Virus record (IMG/VR): IMGVR_UViG_3300025840_000112
Location: 1-34,919 of that record
Direction: 5' to 3' (one strand)
Length of the DNA stretch: 34,919 nucleotides
From: a virus
How positions within the stretch are numbered: position 1 is the stretch's first letter; each line of letters starts with the position of its first letter. The translations under genes and the position numbers were made by a program. A model generated the notes under the pieces. The model saw nothing but the letters and a program-made list of their open reading frames with translations. It had not been told where the DNA came from and ran no database searches. Shown here in pieces: positions 4,153 to 14,206 of the stretch.

Positions 4153-5915
4153 TGTCCAAGAAACGCTCTAGGAAGCCCATAGAGAGTCAAGAGGGTCTTT
4201 CTGGTGTAATCATACCCCAGACCCCTGAGATGACTCTCAGCGATCCTCTGAGGCCGATTAAACAGGACTTCAGGAAGTTTCTCTACCTAGTATGGAAAGA
4301 AATCAAGTTACCTGACCCTACCCCTGTCCAGTATGACATTGCACAGTTCCTACAGGACGGTCAGACAAAGATATGTATCCAAGCGTTCCGAGGTGTAGGT
4401 AAGTCGTTCATTACGTCTGCCTATGTCCTCTGGGAGCTGCTTAGAGACCCTCAGAAGAAGATACTGGTGGTATCAGCGTCAAAGAACAGAGCTGACAACT
4501 TCACCACCTTTACCCTGAACCTGGTCAATCAGATGGAGGTTCTGAAACATCTTATACCTAAAGATAACCAGAGGCAGTCTAAGATTGAATTTGACGTAGC
4601 CCCAGCAGAACCCGACCAGTCTCCCTCAGTTAAGTCTGTGGGTATCACTGGTCAGATCACTGGTACTCGTGCAGACATCGTTATTGCAGACGACGTAGAG
4701 GTGCTGAATAACTCAGCTACCTCAGATATGCGAGAGAAGCTCTTAGAGCGTACTAAAGAGTTCTCAGCTATCCTGAAGCCCAAGAGAGATGCTCGGGTTA
4801 TATATCTGGGTACACCTCAGACAGAAGACAGTATCTATAATAAGCTGCCGGAAACCTTTACTACTAAAATCTGGCCAGCTCTGATGCCTACGTCTGAAGA
4901 GATGGACAAGTACGGCAACGACCTAGCCCCATACATAAAGAAGCTTGCAGTTGACGAAGGTACATCTACAGACCCCCTACGGTTCTCTGACATGGATTTG
5001 GCAGAGCGTAAGGCTGAATATGGGAAGGCTGGCTTCTCCCTACAGTTTATGCTGAACACCCAGCTCAGTGACCTTGAGAGATACCCCCTGAAGATACGAG
5101 ACCTGATTGTCATGCATACACAGGCAGACAAAGCCCCTATGGATGTACACTGGATGCCTGACCCTGAGAAGCAGTGGAAAGACCTACCGAACCTAGCGAT
5201 GGCTGGAGACCGCTTCTACCACCCTAGGAGTACCTCTAGTGACTTTGGGGAGTACACAGGCTCAGTCATGGCTATTGACCCTGCTGGGCGTGGTAAAGAC
5301 GAAACAGGCTATGCTGTAGTCAAGATGATTAACGGCTTCCTATATGTCAGACGCTGCGGTGGCTTTCAGGGAGGGTACGACAACAATACCCTTACCAAGC
5401 TTGCAGAGATAGCTAAGAGCGAGAAGGTCAACGCTATTATCACTGAGGCTAACTTTGGTGACGGTATGTTTACCCAGCTCCTCAAGCCTGTCCTGAACAA
5501 GATACATCCCTGCCTCATAGAAGAGGTCAAGCATAGTACCCAGAAGGAACGTCGCATCATCGATACCATAGAACCTGTGATGGCTCGTCATAAGCTCATA
5601 GTGGACTCTAGTGTCATTGAGGATGACTATAAGACAGCTCAGGGATATGACGCTGACAATAAGTACACCAAGACGCTGGTCTGGCAGATGACTAGAGTGA
5701 CAACCGACAGAGGTAGTCTGAAGCATGACGATAGGTTGGACGCCCTGGCTATTGCAGTGAACTATTGGACAGAACAGATGGCTCAGGATGAACTGAGAGG
5801 TATGGCTGATGTTCGCTCAAGGAAGCTGGATGACGAACTGGACAAGTTCATGAAGGCGGCTGTGGGGAAATCTAAGTGGACTAAGGGGAACAGTTGGATC
5901 GGTAGTTACACTTAG
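4152..5915 (+). CDS. terminase large subunit (T7 gp19-like DNA maturase B)
   Basis: A 587-aa packaging motor and nuclease. The N-terminal ATPase has Walker A FRGVGKS (residues 79-85) and Walker B IVIADDVE (176-183). The RNase H-like nuclease follows with AIDPAGRGKDE (D376 region), AIITEANFGDG (E432 region) and HDDRLDALAIAVNYW (about 525-539) supplying the acidic metal ligands. Length and order match T7 gp19 (586 aa). It cuts concatemers and drives DNA into the prohead through the portal. In T7-like genomes it is the last late gene, and here it is followed by about 400 bases without genes, fitting a genome end. Confidence 0.95.
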   Translation: MSKKRSRKPIESQEGLSGVIIPQTPEMTLSDPLRPIKQDFRKFLYLVWKEIKLPDPTPVQYDIAQFLQDGQTKICIQAFRGVGKSFITSAYVLWELLRDPQKKILVVSASKNRADNFTTFTLNLVNQMEVLKHLIPKDNQRQSKIEFDVAPAEPDQSPSVKSVGITGQITGTRADIVIADDVEVLNNSATSDMREKLLERTKEFSAILKPKRDARVIYLGTPQTEDSIYNKLPETFTTKIWPALMPTSEEMDKYGNDLAPYIKKLAVDEGTSTDPLRFSDMDLAERKAEYGKAGFSLQFMLNTQLSDLERYPLKIRDLIVMHTQADKAPMDVHWMPDPEKQWKDLPNLAMAGDRFYHPRSTSSDFGEYTGSVMAIDPAGRGKDETGYAVVKMINGFLYVRRCGGFQGGYDNNTLTKLAEIAKSEKVNAIITEANFGDGMFTQLLKPVLNKIHPCLIEEVKHSTQKERRIIDTIEPVMARHKLIVDSSVIEDDYKTAQGYDADNKYTKTLVWQMTRVTTDRGSLKHDDRLDALAIAVNYWTEQMAQDELRGMADVRSRKLDDELDKFMKAAVGKSKWTKGNSWIGSYT

Positions 5916-6853: not shown

Positions 6854-7813
6854 ATGAATGTTTTATCTTTATTCGACGGTATGTCATGCGGTCAGCTTGC
6901 CTTGCAAAGGTCAGGCCTGAAGGTCACTAAATACTTTGCTAGTGAAATAGACAAGTATGCGGTCAGTATCACCCAGAAGAATTTTCCGGATACTGTCCAG
7001 CTCGGGGATGTTCGGGGGGTATATGCAGAACAGGGTCAGCTATTAACTACAGGCGATAATCGCGCCTATAAAATTGACCTACTCATTGGGGGGTCGCCTT
7101 GTCAGGATTTGTCTATCGCATCCAGAAATAGAAAGGGGCTAGAGGGTGAAAGGTCTGGTCTGTTTTATGAATGGGTCAGGCTATGGAAAGCATTGCAGCC
7201 CCGTTATTTTTTGCTGGAAAACGTACAGATGAAGGCAGAAGACCAGCAGATAATCACTGACCTTCTAGGGGTCGAGCCTGTCTTTATAAATAGCAATCTA
7301 GTATCAGCCCAGAATAGGCCTAGATTGTACTGGACAAATATTCCTGTTGATGGATTACCAGAAGACAAAGGAATAAAGCTTGCCGATATCTTGGAAGACG
7401 GGGCGACCGATAGGGACAAAGCCCATTGCATCGACGCCAATTATTTTAAGGGTGGCAATCTTAAATCCTACTTTCAGAAGAATAGAAGACAGCTGGTCTT
7501 TTCACCCGACGGCCTTTGCCATGTAGCAGATGCAGACCTGAAGGGTCATGACCTATTGCGTCGGGTCTATCATCCAGCAGGGAAAGCCCCTTGCCTTAAC
7601 ACTATGAACGGGGGCAATCGCGAACCAAAAACCCTTTGGGGTGATAAGGCATGGCGCAAGCTTACCCCTTTAGAATGTGAAAGATTGCAGACAGTCCCCG
7701 ATAATTATTCAGCAGGGGTTAGCAATACCCAGCGATATAGAATGCTGGGCAATGGCTGGACTGTCGACGTTATCTGTCACTTGTTCAAAAACTTACAAAT
7801 AGAAGGGGCTTAA
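6854..7813 (+). CDS. DNA cytosine-5 methyltransferase (Dcm/DNMT-like)
   Basis: A 319-aa S-adenosylmethionine-dependent enzyme that methylates C5 of cytosine in a specific DNA site. Conserved motifs are in the standard order: motif I LSLFDGMSCGQ (residues 4-14), motif IV GGSPCQDLS with catalytic Cys83, motif VI LENVQ (121-125), motif VIII QNRPRLYW (153-160), motif IX KLTPLECERLQ and motif X RYRMLGNGW. The start MNVLSLFDGMSCGQLAL resembles the short phage-type methyltransferases. The target-recognition region between motifs VIII and IX is about 110 residues. No restriction endonuclease is adjacent, so it is likely a solitary phage enzyme that protects against restriction or marks DNA. The ribosome binding site is AGAAGGG. 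Glycine codons are often GGG, unlike the phage core. Confidence 0.93.
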   Translation: MNVLSLFDGMSCGQLALQRSGLKVTKYFASEIDKYAVSITQKNFPDTVQLGDVRGVYAEQGQLLTTGDNRAYKIDLLIGGSPCQDLSIASRNRKGLEGERSGLFYEWVRLWKALQPRYFLLENVQMKAEDQQIITDLLGVEPVFINSNLVSAQNRPRLYWTNIPVDGLPEDKGIKLADILEDGATDRDKAHCIDANYFKGGNLKSYFQKNRRQLVFSPDGLCHVADADLKGHDLLRRVYHPAGKAPCLNTMNGGNREPKTLWGDKAWRKLTPLECERLQTVPDNYSAGVSNTQRYRMLGNGWTVDVICHLFKNLQIEGA

Positions 7814-7973: not shown

Positions 7974-8764
7974 TGTCTAATGGATTTGTTATATATGAAG
8001 GGGCTTCCAGCCTAGACCCTCAAATTGAAATAGCTGTTATTGCAATTCTCAAATCAGCTAATGGAAAAACAGGCAATATGATACAGACCTATATTCTGGT
8101 CAAAGATACCGACCCTAGATATGCCAATAAATCAGGGCTAGACTTTGCCATATGCGGGGACTGTATCCATAGGGGCAGACCGTCAAATAATCCAGATAAA
8201 AAACTGGCTGAGGGTCGTACTTGCTATGTAAACATAGGGCAAGGGGTTTTGATTGTTTGGAAACAATATCAGAAAGGGGCTTATCCCTATCTGTCAGGAC
8301 ATGAAGATATAGCCCAGCTCGGGGCAGGACAAATAGTCAGGCTTGGAACATATGGCGACCCGTCGGCTGCCCCCTCTTTTATTTGGGAAAGCTTACTATC
8401 ATTAGCAAAAGGCCGGACTGGATACACCCATCAGCTCGGGGTATCTGGGGCAGATGTAAGACCAGACCTTTGCATGATATCAGCCGATACATATGAACAG
8501 GCTTTATATGCATGGGGTCAGGGATATAGGACTTTCAGGACTGTTCCAATTTTGGAAAGTAAAGAAAAGACCCTTGCCCAGATAGACCGTAAAAATGAAA
8601 CCCTTTGCCCAGCTAGTGAAGAGGCAGGCTATAGAACGACCTGTAAAGATTGCAAGCTATGTTCAGGGTCAGGGATAAAGGCAAAAAATATTGTGATACC
8701 TATGCATGATACAAAATCTGTATCTGCAAAACGCCGGCAAAACTTACAGATGATGGGGGCTTAA
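7973..8764 (+). CDS. conserved phage protein with two cysteine clusters, function unknown
   Basis: A 263-aa protein. It begins with VIYEGASSLD and has KTGNMIQTYIL at about residues 32-42. The first Cys cluster is C61-x2-C64 with H66 and C84 (CGDCIHRG, later RTCYVNIGQG). The second is C212, C224, C227 and C230 (CPASEEAGYRTTCKDCKLC). The middle has RLGTYGDPSAAP and GRTGYTHQ. I recognise this combination as a family spread through phages and plasmids of proteobacteria and actinobacteria that has no assigned role. The spacing of the Cys residues suggests zinc binding and perhaps contact with nucleic acid. Its start overlaps the upstream stop. It ends MMGA with GGGGGCTTAA before the next ATG. Confidence 0.7.
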   Translation: MSNGFVIYEGASSLDPQIEIAVIAILKSANGKTGNMIQTYILVKDTDPRYANKSGLDFAICGDCIHRGRPSNNPDKKLAEGRTCYVNIGQGVLIVWKQYQKGAYPYLSGHEDIAQLGAGQIVRLGTYGDPSAAPSFIWESLLSLAKGRTGYTHQLGVSGADVRPDLCMISADTYEQALYAWGQGYRTFRTVPILESKEKTLAQIDRKNETLCPASEEAGYRTTCKDCKLCSGSGIKAKNIVIPMHDTKSVSAKRRQNLQMMGA

Positions 8765-9264: not shown

Positions 9265-9403
9265 GCCCCCAATTCCTGGTTTTTGCGAATGATTATCAAT
9301 TTCATCTGGAAAATTTTTTGATTTTTTTCCGGGGCCCAGGCTATTTCACTATCATTGTTACCGCTACGTTTTATATGGATTTTACTTTCTTTTCCGTAAG
9401 CCC
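9265..9403. other. non-coding gap, AT-rich with A- and T-tracts
   Basis: No gene seen. The stretch contains a GGAAAA ... TTTTCC dyad with long T-tracts (about 9308-9332), which would bend DNA, then GGGGCCC. It lies between the cassette terminator and the promoter of the integrase unit. A Fur-box-like sequence at 9285-9303 is listed separately. Confidence 0.4.
9285..9303. promoter_or_regulatory. Fur-box-like palindrome (weak call)
   Basis: GCGAATGATTATCAATTTC matches the 19-bp Fur consensus at 14 positions (15 if the central A/T is treated as either). It is about 100 bases upstream of the candidate promoter at 9404. AT-rich DNA gives such matches by chance, so regulation by iron is only a possibility. 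Confidence 0.2.
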
Positions 9404-9432
9404 TTGACATTTACACCCTCCGTCCCCATATT
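9404..9432 (+). promoter_or_regulatory. sigma70-like promoter of the integrase unit
   Basis: A perfect -35 TTGACA (9404-9409), a 17-base spacer and CATATT (9427-9432) as -10. It is the best host-type promoter seen in the window and points toward the small ORF, the winged-helix regulator and the integrase. It would allow transcription by host RNA polymerase right after entry or in the prophage. Confidence 0.6.
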
Positions 9433-9492
9433 GACTAAGTAGAGTGAACGCATTACGTTCTTGCTTTGTTCTAGCTTAATAGGAGTGCATTA

Positions 9493-9612
9493 ATGAACGA
9501 AGAAGTCTTTGTACTTAGAGTGGGCAGCTCTTTCTGCCTTGAGGTTCTTACATATGGTATATATATTCGTATAGGGAAGTATGATAAAATGTTACCATAC
9601 AGTAAAGAATAG
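9493..9612 (+). CDS. 39-aa leader ORF of the integrase unit
   Basis: ATG 9493 lies seven bases after AGGAG. The product (MNEEVFVLRVGSSFCLEVLT, then YGIYIRIGKYDKMLPYSKE) is short, with no recognisable domain. The coding sequence contains an inverted repeat TATGGTA / TACCATA (9553-9559, 9593-9599) and TATAGGGA, so the stretch may act as an operator or leader rather than through the peptide. The call as a gene depends on the ribosome binding site. Confidence 0.4.
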   Translation: MNEEVFVLRVGSSFCLEVLTYGIYIRIGKYDKMLPYSKE

Positions 9613-9651
9613 CTAGTCGCCTACCTGACTATAAACGAGGGAAAAAAAAGT

Positions 9652-9978
9652 ATGACAAAATCCGCCGAACTTAAGGGGGTTCTTGAGCAGTTTTATACAC
9701 TATACCCTGCGATGCCACTGACATACATTTTAAGCTTCATCTGGGTAGCAGAAAACGAGGGACGACACCAATACGACCTCGAGCAATACTTAGGACTATC
9801 CAATGCAACAGCGTCAAGATGTATAAAATGGTGGGGCAGATGGAAGGACAAGAAAAAGCAAAATGCTGGCTTGGAATTCATCGAGTCCTACCCTGACCCA
9901 GTCGATGAGCGTTACAGGGTTGTTAAGTTAACTAAATCAGGAAAGGCTTTCTATGAGAGAGTATTCAAAAGCGAATAA
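9652..9978 (+). CDS. winged-helix (MarR-like) DNA-binding regulator
   Basis: A 108-aa protein preceded by GAGGG. Residues about 42-62 (YDLEQYLGLSNATASRCIKWW) form a helix-turn-helix with the recognition helix NATASRCIKWW. The later ERYRVVKLTKSGKAFYERV (about 87-105) is the beta-wing and final helix typical of MarR-type winged helices. Such proteins bind palindromic operators as dimers. Lying just before the integrase, it could control the lysis-lysogeny choice or an early promoter, for example the dyad before the RNA polymerase gene. That role is inferred. It ends 26 bases inside the next gene. Confidence 0.7.
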   Translation: MTKSAELKGVLEQFYTLYPAMPLTYILSFIWVAENEGRHQYDLEQYLGLSNATASRCIKWWGRWKDKKKQNAGLEFIESYPDPVDERYRVVKLTKSGKAFYERVFKSE

Positions 9979-10279
9979 GTATGGTCTGAATTACCCAGAA
10001 GCGAGGAGCTTCCTGCTCTTCGCAGCAGGGGAGGCAGAGTGGGAAGGTGATGATTTGTTGGCTGAACGCTTACGGATACAAGCGGCTCACTATGTTGCAA
10101 CCTATCCGGAAGCGGATGGAGAATATGCAGTGCAATGCACATCACCTCATTTTGATAATAAGTATTGGCAAGAGTGGAGACACAAGAATGGCGAGACAGC
10201 GTGGGAATACATGGCAAGGCGACGTAAAAACATCAACAAAGCGTTACAGAAAGAGTTTTACCAGCAAGCAGGATGCTGA
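9953..10279 (+). CDS. 108-aa hypothetical protein overlapping the integrase start
   Basis: Overlaps the winged-helix gene by 26 bases and the integrase by 92 bases in different frames. The product begins MREYSKANKYGLNYPEARSF, is acidic and helical in its first half and ends with a basic helix (MARRRKNINKALQKEF). I recognise no domain. The position directly before an integrase is where excisionases are often found, but it lacks a visible helix-turn-helix and is not especially basic overall. The long overlap makes it unusual; it may be partly non-functional. Confidence 0.5.
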   Translation: MREYSKANKYGLNYPEARSFLLFAAGEAEWEGDDLLAERLRIQAAHYVATYPEADGEYAVQCTSPHFDNKYWQEWRHKNGETAWEYMARRRKNINKALQKEFYQQAGC

Positions 10280-11159
10280 ACTCTGGGAAGCTTCAGTTAA
10301 GCTTGCAATCGCCCGTGGTGAGCCTATCAGCTCCGAGGGTGTATTACCTGGTACTGAGACCTTCACACAGTACTACAGGAGAGTACACAGCGTTCTATGG
10401 GGCGATACCCAGCACGGCATGAAGGTTATCAGTCAGCTCGACGAGATTGCCTCTATCATCAAGGACTGTCCTGTATCTCAGATTACAGACCAGCATATAG
10501 AGGACATTGTTACCGCCCTAAAACAGCGTCGTAATGCTGATGCCACCATCAATCGTAAAATGGCGTCCTTGTCCAAAGTACTGTCACAAGCCAAGAAGAC
10601 AAAGGTGCTGGCAGATAAGCCTGACATCCCTCGTCTGAAGGAAGGTCGGGGACGACTTCGCTTCTTATCTAAAGAGGAAGAGACCCGACTGCTGGACAAG
10701 CTTGGATACCTGAGACCGGAGTTTGCAGACTTTACTGCATTCCTAATTGATACAGGCTTCCGGTTTGGCGAGGCACTCAAGTTCACTTGGAGTGACTACC
10801 ACGATGGCAAGGTGACCCTCTGGCACACCAAGAGCAACACACCTCGCACCGTACCGCTTACCCAGCGTTGCCGTGAGATACTTGAGCGTTGCCCTAGGGA
10901 TAACCAGCAGCCCTTCAGCCACATCAATCGGAACACCTACCGCACAGTCTTTGAGAAGGCCAGAGCAATGGCTGGGCTGGGTGAGGATGTCATACCCCAT
11001 GTGATGCGTCATACCTGTGCATCAAGGCTGGTTCAGTCGGGGGTAGACATCAGGCGTGTCCAGGTTTGGCTTGGACACAGCACTATCGCAATGACCATGA
11101 GATATAGCCATCTAGCACCTGATGATCTGGATGTATGTCTTGAAGCTTTAGAAGGTTAA
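10188..11159 (+). CDS. int: tyrosine recombinase integrase
   Basis: I set the start at ATG 10188 (GGAGA seven bases upstream; MARQRGNTWQGDVK resembles the usual beginning of this integrase type), giving 323 aa. The AP2-like arm-binding N-terminus is residues 1-45, the core-binding domain about 60-150, and the catalytic domain 155-323. All catalytic residues are visible: R192 (GFRFGEALKF), K215 (HTKSNTPRT), H271 and R274 (HVMRH), H297 (WLGHST) and nucleophile Y306 (RYSHL). It would recombine attP with a host tRNA-Leu. The complete tRNA-Leu starts 53 bases after its stop. It overlaps the upstream ORF by 92 bases. Confidence 0.95.
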   Translation: MARQRGNTWQGDVKTSTKRYRKSFTSKQDAELWEASVKLAIARGEPISSEGVLPGTETFTQYYRRVHSVLWGDTQHGMKVISQLDEIASIIKDCPVSQITDQHIEDIVTALKQRRNADATINRKMASLSKVLSQAKKTKVLADKPDIPRLKEGRGRLRFLSKEEETRLLDKLGYLRPEFADFTAFLIDTGFRFGEALKFTWSDYHDGKVTLWHTKSNTPRTVPLTQRCREILERCPRDNQQPFSHINRNTYRTVFEKARAMAGLGEDVIPHVMRHTCASRLVQSGVDIRRVQVWLGHSTIAMTMRYSHLAPDDLDVCLEALEG

Positions 11160-11165
11160 TGATAC

Positions 11166-11204
11166 TGTGACACAACGTGTGACATCTTGTGCCATATGTG
11201 GCAC
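11166..11204 (+). repeat. four TGTGNCA heptamers between integrase and tRNA; candidate arm-type sites
   Basis: TGTGACA (11166), TGTGACA (11178), TGTGCCA (11188) and TGTGGCA (11197) are spaced 12, 10 and 9 bases apart, about one helical turn. The last two also form an inverted repeat (TGTGCCA-TATG-TGGCACA). The place between int and the likely core site suits integrase arm-binding sites or an accessory-protein site. Confidence 0.45.
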
Positions 11205-11212
11205 AGCTCGTC

Positions 11213-11300
11213 GGGGGCATGGTGAAATTGGTAAACACACAAGACTTAAAATCTTGCGGCTGAACAAGCCTTCCCGGTTCAAGTCCGGGTGTCCCCACCA
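11213..11300 (+). tRNA. tRNA-Leu (anticodon UAA), probable attP core
   Basis: A complete 88-base class II tRNA with encoded CCA. Acceptor GGGGGCA (11213-11219) pairs with TGTCCCC (11290-11296) with one G-T. The D stem is GTG/CAC, the anticodon stem CAAGA/TCTTG with loop CTTAAAA (anticodon TAA at 11247-11249). The variable arm is GGCT/AGCC and the T arm CCCGG-TTCAAGT-CCGGG, followed by A and CCA. It is flanked by phage genes on both sides, which fits an unintegrated attP that carries a whole tRNA or restores the host gene on integration. P-SSP7 and pelagiphages carry tRNA-Leu matches in the same place. It may also be expressed. Confidence 0.92.
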
Positions 11301-11304
11301 TTTT

Positions 11305-11323
11305 ACACAAGAGTCTTAAAATC
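11305..11323 (+). repeat. degenerate copy of the tRNA-Leu anticodon arm
   Basis: ACACAAGAGTCTTAAAATC repeats the tRNA segment at 11237-11253 (ACACAAGACTTAAAATC) with only a two-base insertion. It starts five bases after the tRNA end. The 3' half of the stem is not restored, so it is not a second tRNA. It could be a remnant of an earlier recombination or an alternative core-like site. Confidence 0.5.
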
Positions 11324-11359
11324 CCTATAGACTCCCTTACATATCCAAAAACAACCTCT

Positions 11360-11384
11360 AGCCCTTGTATATTCTACAGGGGCT
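11360..11384 (+). promoter_or_regulatory. 25-base dyad upstream of the RNA polymerase gene
   Basis: AGCCCTTGTA-TATTC-TACAGGGGCT forms a 10-bp stem with one G-T pair. No T-run follows. Seven bases downstream is TATACT (11391-11396), a good -10 hexamer, so the dyad covers the place where a -35 element would lie. It could be an operator, for instance for the winged-helix regulator, or an RNA processing hairpin in the transcript entering the RNA polymerase gene. Confidence 0.4.
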
Positions 11385-11445
11385 GGACGATATACTATTA
11401 CTTACACATACACAGGAGACTTGTATGAAGAGGCACACTGTATCG

Positions 11446-11468
11446 AAACTTATCACACGTACTAGAAG
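11446..11468 (+). promoter_or_regulatory. predicted phage RNA polymerase promoter (copy 1)
   Basis: First copy of a 23-bp perfect direct repeat, whose second copy is at 13991-14013. Its end, CACACGTACTAGAAG, resembles the last part of the SP6 promoter (ACACTATAGAAG). The predicted start is G11465, 23 bases before ATG 11488. It lies inside the longer possible reading frame of the RNA polymerase. Identity is inferred from repetition, position and similarity to T7-group promoters. Confidence 0.65.
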
Positions 11469-11487
11469 AGAAGAGGAGTATCCAAAG

Positions 11488-13968
11488 ATGAACCAAGAGT
11501 ATAACTATAAGTTAAACTGTAGTGATGACTTTAGTAATAGCGTCTTACAGGATAAATTAGAAGAAGATATCTATACTAGTGCTAATACTAGAATGACTAA
11601 AGATAACTTAGAGTCTAACTCTAGGGGGGCTTGGTCTGAAAGTAAGATAGGCAGTAGGTATGTCTCTTCAGCCCAGCGAAAGTTCACTGAAGCTTTAATC
11701 TCGTTCCTGTCTAGGAAGAGTGGTGGTAGGGGTGCTAGAGCTGCTGAGTATCTAAGACAGACTGGTCTCAATCCAGAGGTTATCTCATACCTCTATGTCA
11801 AACAGGTATTTAATTTAATACCCTTGTTTTCGTCTAAACCAATCAAGCGTACCAGCTTCTGTATTAAATCTGTTGATGCTATCCATACAGAGTGGCGTTT
11901 AGATTTCTTTGGGTCTGTCAAGGAACGTAAGAACCTATTGGATAAGATTACGAAAGACATGGACAAGCGTACCTACCCTACGTCTTGGCGTATGCGTACC
12001 TACCGGATGTACTTCGATGCTGAACAGGTAGAGTGGCGTGGATGGTCTCAAAGAGAGTGTCTGTTGATTGGATATGCTCTGATGAACCTCTTCAGGGAAG
12101 CTACAGCCTTAATTCAGTATGACCACACGGAGACCTACATAATACCTACCCCTGAACTGGTAGACCATGTAGAGGAAACCTGTAAGCGGTCTGTATTAGA
12201 CTTTACGCTGTACCTACCGATGGTCGTTAAGCCTCGCCCGTGGTCTGCTGAATATAATCTGTTCAAGGGTGGATACCTTAACAAAGGCCGTGTGAAAAAA
12301 TACAGCATCATCAAAGGTGCTGGTAAAAGAGATGTCGAGCGTATGCTACGGATGGACTGGGAGCGTATCCTGCCACCCATCAATGCCATACAGGAGACAC
12401 CTTGGAGAGTAAAGCGTCGCATGGTTGACGCACTAGATTACGTCTTCAATGAGCTGGGCGGTAACCGTGGGGGTTTACCAACTGTAGATGCCCGTGAGTT
12501 ACCACCCAAACCACCAGCCTACGATACAGACGAACAAGTACGCAAAGCCCACAACAGGGAAGTATTTCTTGTTCGTGACCAGAACCGTCAGGATATCTCA
12601 AAGAGACTGTCAGTTGTCTTTACGTTGTCCATAGCTCGTAAGTTTCAGCAGTTCCATCAGATATTCTTTCCGCACAATCTGGATGTACGGGGTCGGGCAT
12701 ATCCACTACCAGCCTTCCTGAACCCACAGGCAGCCGACTTCGGTAAATCAATGCTGGAGTTTGCTGAGGGTCAACCTATCCAGAACATGGAGCAAGCTGC
12801 ATGGCTTGCGGTGGCTGGAGCTAATGCTTGGGGTAACGATAAAGTATCCCTGCAAGACCGAGCTGACTGGGTGATTGCCAATGAGGACTGGATTGTAGAG
12901 TGTGGCAAAGACTGGCGTAATAACCAGCAGTGGCTGGACGCTGACGAACCTTTCATGTTCTTGTCCTTCTGTATGGAATGGGCAGACCTGTTGGAGACAG
13001 ATAAGCGTGGCGAGGTATTCTATTCGCACTTCCCGTGCCATGTAGATGCCACCTGTTCCGGCTTACAGCACTACTCAGCGATGCTCAGAGATGAGGTCGG
13101 GGGTAAATCAGTAAACCTAATTCCAGGATTAGACCGTCAGGACATCTATGCTGATGTGGCAGAGGTGACCAAACGTATGCTGATTGCCGAGGGTTCACCG
13201 GAGGCCATGTTATGGGTCAACTTTGGAATAGACCGTAAGATGACCAAGCGTCAGACAATGGTGATACCTTATGCTGGTAAGTTCTCGAGCTGTATGGAGT
13301 ACACCCGAGAGGCTTACATGGACAAGCTGAAGGCTGGACATAAGCGGATGTGGGATGACAAGCAGGATCAAGCGATGGTCGTACTACTTGCCAAGCACAT
13401 TTGGGCAGCTATAAATGAGGTGGTTGTGAAGGGTAAGGTGGCTATGGACTGGCTGTCTTCAGTAGCCAGAGAGTGGACTAAATACCAAAACAAGCTGGAA
13501 TGTTCAGGGTACGATAAACGTATGACATGGACAACACCCGATGGTTTTCAGGTGGTACAGTACAGAGCAGCACAAAAACAAATGCGACATGATACTTACA
13601 TGAACGGAAGGGTTAGCCTTACATATTATGAAGATGCACCAAAACTTGATGGAAAAGATATGGCACTATCTGTTGCGCCTAACTTTGTTCACAGCCTCGA
13701 TGCTACTCATTTGCGTATGGCTGTCCTTGATGGTCTCAGAGTTGGGATTGGTAGCTTTGCCATGATCCATGACAGCTTCGGGGTTCATGCTGCACATATG
13801 CCTGTGTTTATCGAGCAGTGTGTAAAGCCTAGCTTTATACAAATGTATGTACACTCAGACCCTTTGGCTGAATTACATAATTCTTTGCCTTTTGAACATG
13901 ACCTTCCCCCGTCTAAAGGTAACTTGGACATTCAAGGTGTCTCTGAAAGTGAGTTTTTCTTTTCTTAA
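11488..13968 (+). CDS. T7-like single-subunit DNA-directed RNA polymerase
   Basis: Transcribes the phage genes from phage-specific promoters. With ATG 11488 (AGAGGAG nine bases upstream) it has 826 aa; ATG 11425, also with a good AGGAG, would give 847 aa. T7 RNA polymerase has 883. Catalytic features are intact: LDVRGRAYPLP (about 398-408), motif A HVDATCSGLQH with D520 (T7 D537), motif B MTKRQTMVIPYAG with K587 and Y595 (T7 K631 and Y639), motif C MIHDSFG with D762 (T7 D812), and a hydrophobic C-terminus EFFFS like the T7 FAFA foot. A predicted phage promoter lies just before the shorter start. The integrase and tRNA precede it, as in temperate marine podophages. Confidence 0.95.
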   Translation: MNQEYNYKLNCSDDFSNSVLQDKLEEDIYTSANTRMTKDNLESNSRGAWSESKIGSRYVSSAQRKFTEALISFLSRKSGGRGARAAEYLRQTGLNPEVISYLYVKQVFNLIPLFSSKPIKRTSFCIKSVDAIHTEWRLDFFGSVKERKNLLDKITKDMDKRTYPTSWRMRTYRMYFDAEQVEWRGWSQRECLLIGYALMNLFREATALIQYDHTETYIIPTPELVDHVEETCKRSVLDFTLYLPMVVKPRPWSAEYNLFKGGYLNKGRVKKYSIIKGAGKRDVERMLRMDWERILPPINAIQETPWRVKRRMVDALDYVFNELGGNRGGLPTVDARELPPKPPAYDTDEQVRKAHNREVFLVRDQNRQDISKRLSVVFTLSIARKFQQFHQIFFPHNLDVRGRAYPLPAFLNPQAADFGKSMLEFAEGQPIQNMEQAAWLAVAGANAWGNDKVSLQDRADWVIANEDWIVECGKDWRNNQQWLDADEPFMFLSFCMEWADLLETDKRGEVFYSHFPCHVDATCSGLQHYSAMLRDEVGGKSVNLIPGLDRQDIYADVAEVTKRMLIAEGSPEAMLWVNFGIDRKMTKRQTMVIPYAGKFSSCMEYTREAYMDKLKAGHKRMWDDKQDQAMVVLLAKHIWAAINEVVVKGKVAMDWLSSVAREWTKYQNKLECSGYDKRMTWTTPDGFQVVQYRAAQKQMRHDTYMNGRVSLTYYEDAPKLDGKDMALSVAPNFVHSLDATHLRMAVLDGLRVGIGSFAMIHDSFGVHAAHMPVFIEQCVKPSFIQMYVHSDPLAELHNSLPFEHDLPPSKGNLDIQGVSESEFFFS

Positions 13969-13990
13969 CCCTTACATATACGAGACTCTT

Positions 13991-14013
13991 AAACTTATCA
14001 CACGTACTAGAAG
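13991..14013 (+). promoter_or_regulatory. predicted phage RNA polymerase promoter (copy 2)
   Basis: Second copy of the 23-bp direct repeat, in the short gap after the RNA polymerase gene. The predicted start is G14010, 17 bases before the ATG of the first middle gene. A shared CCCTTACATAT lies upstream of both copies (11334-11344 and 13969-13979). This would drive the replication operon by the phage polymerase. Confidence 0.65.
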
Positions 14014-14026
14014 GAAACCTTCGGAA

Positions 14027-14206
14027 ATGACTCAAATGTTTGACCAACTACATCCCGTCGTTGAGATTATACGCACTGCGTACAACTCACGAGAAACTTT
14101 GAACGGTATCAAACGGGATACCTTCGAGCGTCTGTACTTAGCACTAGCAATGTCAGACCCCTACGGTTGTGAAAACTTCCTACAGAGATTGTATGATGAC
14201 ATCTAA
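14027..14206 (+). CDS. 59-aa hypothetical protein, first middle gene
   Basis: The frame is open further upstream into the RNA polymerase gene, but ATG 14027 lies 17 bases after the predicted phage promoter start and after AAGGA, so I choose it. The product (MTQMFDQLHPVVEIIRTAYN onwards) is helical with no recognised domain. By position it corresponds to the small genes between RNA polymerase and ssDNA-binding protein in T7 (1.1 to 2). The next gene begins 11 bases before its stop. Confidence 0.55.
   Translation: MTQMFDQLHPVVEIIRTAYNSRETLNGIKRDTFERLYLALAMSDPYGCENFLQRLYDDI

Follow-up and report, generated by a model that had tools for sequence, protein, structure and literature searches.

The window, a virus record of 34,919 bases analysed over its whole length, belongs to a T7-like phage with temperate features, as judged from its gene content, and two identical 23-base sites flanking its RNA polymerase (RNAP) gene are very probably promoters read by the phage's own T7-type RNAP, the first of which (P1) would be autogenous. 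P1, AAACTTATCACACGTACTAGAAG, lies in the leader of the RNAP gene (11446–11468, +) and spans −19 to +4 relative to a predicted +1 at G11465, with a recognition segment (−12 to −5) at 11453–11460. P2, the second copy of AAACTTATCACACGTACTAGAAG (13991–14013, +; predicted +1 at G14010), lies between the RNAP stop codon and the first middle gene, a 59-residue hypothetical gene identified from sequence in a region conserved in the alignment (14027–14206, +). The perfect direct repeat described in the initial annotation is borne out, since the 23 bases occur exactly twice, and its judgement that chance is a negligible explanation holds as well: the 20-base core is found at only these two places in the record with up to three mismatches and is absent from each of 100 dinucleotide shuffles. 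The spacing to the start codons was also as annotated, P1 ending 19 bases short of ATG 11488 and P2 13 bases short of ATG 14027. Scoring the window less strictly added four weaker matches to the two sites, with 3–10 in each of five simple shuffles, and a sigma-70-like scan of 9400–14200 returned fewer sites than were found in shuffles. The proposed likeness to the SP6 promoter end is partial; the Pseudomonas phage LUZ100 is closer in the +1 register (TTACCACAC vs. TTATCACAC here).

The record carries genes for the large terminase, a MarR-like regulator, a tyrosine integrase, tRNA-Leu, the RNAP, a Gp2.5-like single-stranded DNA-binding protein (SSB), a primase/helicase, DNA polymerase, ribonucleotide reductase, portal and capsid. 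The T7-type single-subunit RNAP gene (11488–13968, +) is assigned by its match to phrog_414 (E 1.2e-208), a profile match to T7 RNAP chains of the PDB (E ∼1e-96) and conservation of its start, and residues D520, K587, Y595 and D762, which we take to be the catalytic Asp, Lys, Tyr and Asp, align within motifs DxxCSG, TKR, Y and HDS. Its ATG at 11488, preceded by AGGAG, is present in 8/8 aligned sequences (the window and seven relatives), and the alternative in-frame ATG at 11425, a start that would place P1 within the coding sequence, is present in 4/8. The specificity-loop region covers residues 683–714 (codons 13534–13629, +), including residues 698, 700 and 710 (codons 13579–13581, 13585–13587 and 13615–13617, +). 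Upstream lie the MarR-like transcriptional regulator (9652–9978, +; phrog_9665 E 2.7e-22, with Pfam MarR_2 at E 0.015, under the cut-off), the tyrosine integrase (10047–11159, +; start codon uncertain; phrog_1 E 4.3e-57, PF00589 E 2.1e-27) and tRNA-Leu with anticodon TAA (11213–11300, +). A C-5 cytosine DNA methyltransferase gene is located at 6854–7813 (PF00145 E 4.3e-39), ahead of the regulator and integrase. Invariant in 8/8 aligned sequences, CAAGAGTCTTAAAATC at 11308–11323, right after the tRNA-Leu gene, mimics the anticodon arm of that tRNA (CAAGA-CTTAAAATC) and is a candidate attP core; if a lysogen formed through this segment, the host tRNA promoter would face P1 and the RNAP gene. One scan of bacterial genome contigs revealed no close prophage relative, and in a second genome-contig scan, bacterial contigs yielded seven RNAP relatives, all of them more distant.

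At 13 IMG/VR loci, the encoded RNAP is 80–100% identical to that of the record over its best segment, and a motif search in these relatives, a check named beforehand in the initial annotation, found the site at the same places wherever the flank was present. Seven distinct genomes carry both sites. When the two copies are compared within each of these genomes, agreement is 7/7 throughout −17 to +3 apart from −8 and −3 (6/7 each), 5/7 at +4 and 6/7 at +5, and then falls away, a footprint (−17 to about +5) that fits a T7-type promoter. Between genomes, CTTA (−16 to −13) and ACTAGAA (−4 to +3) are nearly constant and the −12 to −5 segment varies, being TCACACGT in the record and CCGCCACC, CCGCCCAT, CAACACCC or CCGCCCAC elsewhere; over this segment the true pairs show one base difference in total, a value equalled by 4 of 5040 pairing permutations. 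Agreement within a genome combined with change between genomes is the pattern that promoters read by one polymerase should display.

Exactly two copies with up to three mismatches are present in this record, L005 (37,988 bases), L003 (31,554 bases) and L012 (28,942 bases), and similar patterns found two in the L094 record, three each in the L098 and L103 records, two, three and five in the Roseobacter phages CRP-403, CRP-118 and CRP-804, and seven in LUZ100, all of these being counts from virus records of unstated completeness that more diverged copies would escape; the CRP pattern, for example, misses the upstream copy of CRP-403. A degenerate DNA pattern matched 37 contig stretches, 16 of which encode an RNAP, with L038 giving a weak 25% match; 10 of the other 20 were looked at (six inside an open frame reading ...LEGN and four elsewhere), and as none of the 10 had an RNAP match, they were treated as chance.

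Within the −12 to −5 segment, variation at −8, −7 and −6 tracks the promoter-specificity loop of the polymerase. The covariation scan comprised 10 distinct RNAPs and 463 aligned columns (138 variable); L007, L010, L012, L014, L021, L026 and L046 were omitted, each having the loop and promoter of a kept row, and L011 was entered by its downstream copy (G at −8). Across the 463 columns, the best column for −8 is residue 710 (partial r 0.90, next 0.55), for −7 residue 700 (0.88, next 0.33) and for −6 residue 698 (0.71, next 0.50), all three of which are among the nine variable columns of the loop (693–712). In 20,000 label permutations, three distinct loop columns come out on top 494 times if r is ignored, and four times at the observed summed r. 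Promoter distance and distance over the aligned RNAP are uncorrelated (r −0.02), and shared ancestry alone is therefore insufficient to explain the covariation. On a tree built without the loop, parsimony assigns four changes each to −8 and 710 (joint 4), three each to −7 and 700 (joint 3), and four to −6 and three to 698 (joint 4), counts that fit joint change. The best columns for −12, −11 and −5 among the 463 fall outside the loop, which leaves those bases unexplained, −10 is tracked by residue 710 at an r of just 0.51, and in a sliding 20-residue window the loop ranks barely first (partial r 0.42 vs. 0.40 for the best non-loop window).

The pairings are as follows: at −8, C accompanies Arg710, A (once G) accompanies Ser or Asn710, and T accompanies Gln710; at −7, Arg700 occurs with C and His, Leu or Gln700 with A; and at −6, Lys698 occurs with C and Gln or Leu698 with A or G. 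A T7-type promoter of ∼23 bp consists of a recognition segment (−17 to −5) and a start region (−4 to +6), and the T7 specificity loop reads −12 to −5 (PMC13029058). In T7 RNAP, where the loop is defined as 739–770 and contacts −11 to −7, N748 contacts −10/−11, R756 contacts −9 and Q758 contacts −8 (PMC5937735). The HMMER alignment sets residues 698, 700 and 710 opposite T7 Q744, R746 and R756; a two-residue shift within the loop is favoured, as it would pair 710 with Q758 and bring the invariant R708 opposite R756, in keeping with the invariant C at −9. The proposal of the initial annotation that both sites are promoters of the phage's own RNAP is supported by the agreement of the sites within genomes, the confinement of change to −12 to −5 and the covariation of −8, −7 and −6 with the loop.

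A natural switch of both partners is seen in the pair L009 and L011, which differ at 127 of 2,721 aligned bases. Their RNAPs differ at 9 of 825 residues, three of which are loop residues (695, 700 and 710), and both promoters have changed at −11, −10, −8 and −7, with no difference in the leader from P1 to the start codon. The two L011 copies disagree at −8 (A upstream, G downstream), which perhaps represents an intermediate. An alternative is that only P2 works and that P1 is weak or has another role, such as priming replication, with no real positive feedback. P1 is slightly more deviant at +4/+5 in some relatives (A for G), and phage promoters are annotated only behind the RNAP gene in T7, T3 and K11, both of which would suit a weak P1; against this, P1 follows all P2 changes in −12 to −5 bar the one base in L011, and phage promoter phi1 of LUZ100 has been mapped directly before its RNAP gene (PMC10134795), so that a P1 of little consequence appears very unlikely.

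Further repeated words around the promoters may point to a repressor. The second shared word of the initial annotation, CCCTTACATAT, is present exactly at 11334 and 13969, and it fits a candidate repressor box better than a part of the promoter; with two mismatches allowed it is just mildly enriched (20 vs. 10.1 expected, with 3 of 100 shuffles reaching 20). Its exact core, CTTACATAT, occurs four times in the record vs. 0.35 expected: upstream of P1 (11336–11344, +), upstream of P2 (13971–13979, +), 105 bp before the MarR-like gene (9547–9555, +) and within RNAP codons. A second box, CTTACACAT, lies upstream of P1 at 65 bp from the first (11401–11409, +), and a second box reading CTTACACAT or CTTACATAT at this distance is found in all nine loci with both boxes exact; L005 has the first P1 box only, and the P2 box is changed by one base in L005 and L013. 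The presence of CTTACATAT before both promoters and the MarR-like gene makes it a candidate repressor box. An exact CTTACAYAT box precedes the MarR-like gene in just 5/9 loci with that gene (the window, L003, L009, L010 and L015), so autoregulation is a tentative possibility. All six regulators tested (those of LUZ100, the three CRP phages and two pelagiphages) belong to phrog_9665. Between the two CTTACAYAT boxes, a 13-pair hairpin at 11357–11387 shows both-sided changes in six pairs across eight sequences and is followed by no T-run; it may be a terminator, an attachment-site arm or an element with another role. A very unlikely reading is that the 23-mers are themselves binding sites of the MarR-like protein or the integrase, for which speak the regulator and integrase genes nearby and the other repeated word, CTTACATAT, beside both sites, but their bases track the specificity-loop residues of the RNAP, no copy with up to three mismatches stands ahead of the regulator gene in the whole record, and the mapped promoters of LUZ100 share the layout.

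Under the preferred reading of the 23-mers as promoters of the phage RNAP, host RNAP would first make a little phage RNAP, which would then fire P1 and transcribe its own gene in a positive feedback, and would fire P2 to express the genes for replication and the virion that follow it on that strand. In lysogeny, this loop would be kept off by a MarR-like repressor working through the CTTACAYAT boxes, after the model proposed for LUZ100.

The wider RNAP lineage provides a larger sample. Related RNAPs were found at 110 loci, 80 with both flanks (30 lack a flank), and the removal of four same-contig duplicates (L081–L084) left 76 records. The two flanks share a word scoring at least 14 in 34 of the 76 records, the null of 948 mismatched flank pairs having a 99th percentile of 13.5 and a maximum of 23.5, which is taken to come from mismatched pairs inside the record's own clade; the count of independent cases is lower, since the 34 include several near-identical pairs and a few palindromic top words. 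Palindromes or low-complexity words rank highest in L063, L114 and L142, and L053 has an A-rich word; these are not promoters. The shared flank words differ from genome to genome. At 10 of 12 loci with 39–52% RNAP identity, Arg700 occurs with C at −7 in 6/6 and Gln700 with T or G in 4/4, a test softer than the scan because the registers were placed by visual inspection of conserved flanks; L085 and L105, whose register is ambiguous, are not among the 10. The Arg with C pairing is also present in T7, T3, K11, SP6 and LUZ100, and the exceptions to the −7 rule are eight loci of the CRP-403/118/804 type (L062, L063, L064, L109, L110, L111, L113 and L120), which lack Arg at 700 yet have C at −7 in both copies (five loci) or one copy (three loci). 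In the 53 records that extend 1.4 kb or more upstream, integrase detection was 23/26 with a word of at least 13.5 vs. 12/27 without (Fisher p 0.001, uncorrected for relatedness). Pasto, HTVC019P and HTVC200P have no clear word shared between the flanks. In L077, a Paraburkholderia chromosome contig with a related RNAP gene, the same 18-base word stands on both sides of that gene, at 5665–5682 and 8365–8382, and no integrase was detected near the RNAP gene with the queries used. In Roseobacter-type phages, the near-palindrome AATAGTTACGCTACCGTAACAG or a variant stands ahead of both promoters (L063 at 2828–2849 and 5403–5424; L114; L142), where these near-palindromes are possible repressor operators.

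For this RNAP lineage, the 34 of 76 records suggest a rule that the cognate promoter can often be recognised as the word common to the flanks of the RNAP gene; in one screen from the literature, the 100 bp ahead of the capsid gene sufficed for only 1 of 12 soluble new RNAPs (PMC13029058). What appears to be new here, as far as sequence comparison can indicate, is a regulon with only two detectable promoters together with natural co-switching of the polymerase and its promoters; neither a two-site regulon nor natural loop/promoter covariation was found in the literature searched, which included few subscription papers and some articles in partial text. How a polymerase and all its promoters shift specificity together is a standing question, which laboratory work has approached using T7 and an RNAP modified to read a foreign promoter (PMC6171733), and this clade makes it directly testable, as just two sites have to change and pairs such as L009 and L011 occur in nature. 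A more speculative proposal, which we consider doubtful, is that a minimal two-promoter regulon permits fast switching of a private code, possibly selected as insulation, and that promoter type defines compatibility groups. If so, a few loop changes and the same base changes at two sites would create a new RNAP–promoter pair that close relatives may not read, whereas without insulation the RNAP of a relative entering a lysogen would fire the self-amplifying P1 of the resident prophage; promoter type would then set compatibility groups much like repressor immunity.

Several known systems resemble the record in part. T7, T3, K11 and SP6 have a single-subunit RNAP and a promoter architecture with a −12 to −5 recognition segment as in the record. 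The contrast with T7 drawn in the initial annotation was right, as phage promoters are annotated immediately behind the RNAP gene, but not ahead of it, in the regions retrieved for T7, T3 and K11. T7, to our knowledge, also lacks an integrase. The Roseobacter phages CRP-403, CRP-118 and CRP-804 have the same order of a MarR-like regulator or MarR annotation, integrase, RNAP and SSB, and they share the word TAATnACCCTTACTAGA or a close one before and after the RNAP gene; they differ in their RNAPs, which are 35–37% identical and lack Arg at 700, and in their promoter bases, and the word "promoter" is absent from the text of their source paper. LUZ100 (OP329100), a Pseudomonas phage with temperate features, shares with the record an integrase, a phrog_9665 MarR-like regulator and a T7-type RNAP, and the record, where the integrase and regulator likewise lie upstream of the RNAP gene, has by its sequence a cognate promoter directly before that gene as LUZ100 does. 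In both phages further promoter sequence directly follows the RNAP gene and TTAyCACAC occupies −15 to −7. LUZ100 differs in its RNAP, which is about 33% identical to that of the record, in a promoter start region that ends in TATG or CTTG rather than ACTAG, and in its larger number of promoters, eight according to the available text of the paper (PMC10134795) and seven by the pattern used here. In that text, the LUZ100 authors propose a MarR-like repressor acting on the promoter before the RNAP gene and self-amplification of the RNAP, and they credit the idea of flanking sites to Boeckman et al. 2022 (PMC10134795). As the mapped promoters of LUZ100 have the same layout, self-transcription of an RNAP gene is already known.
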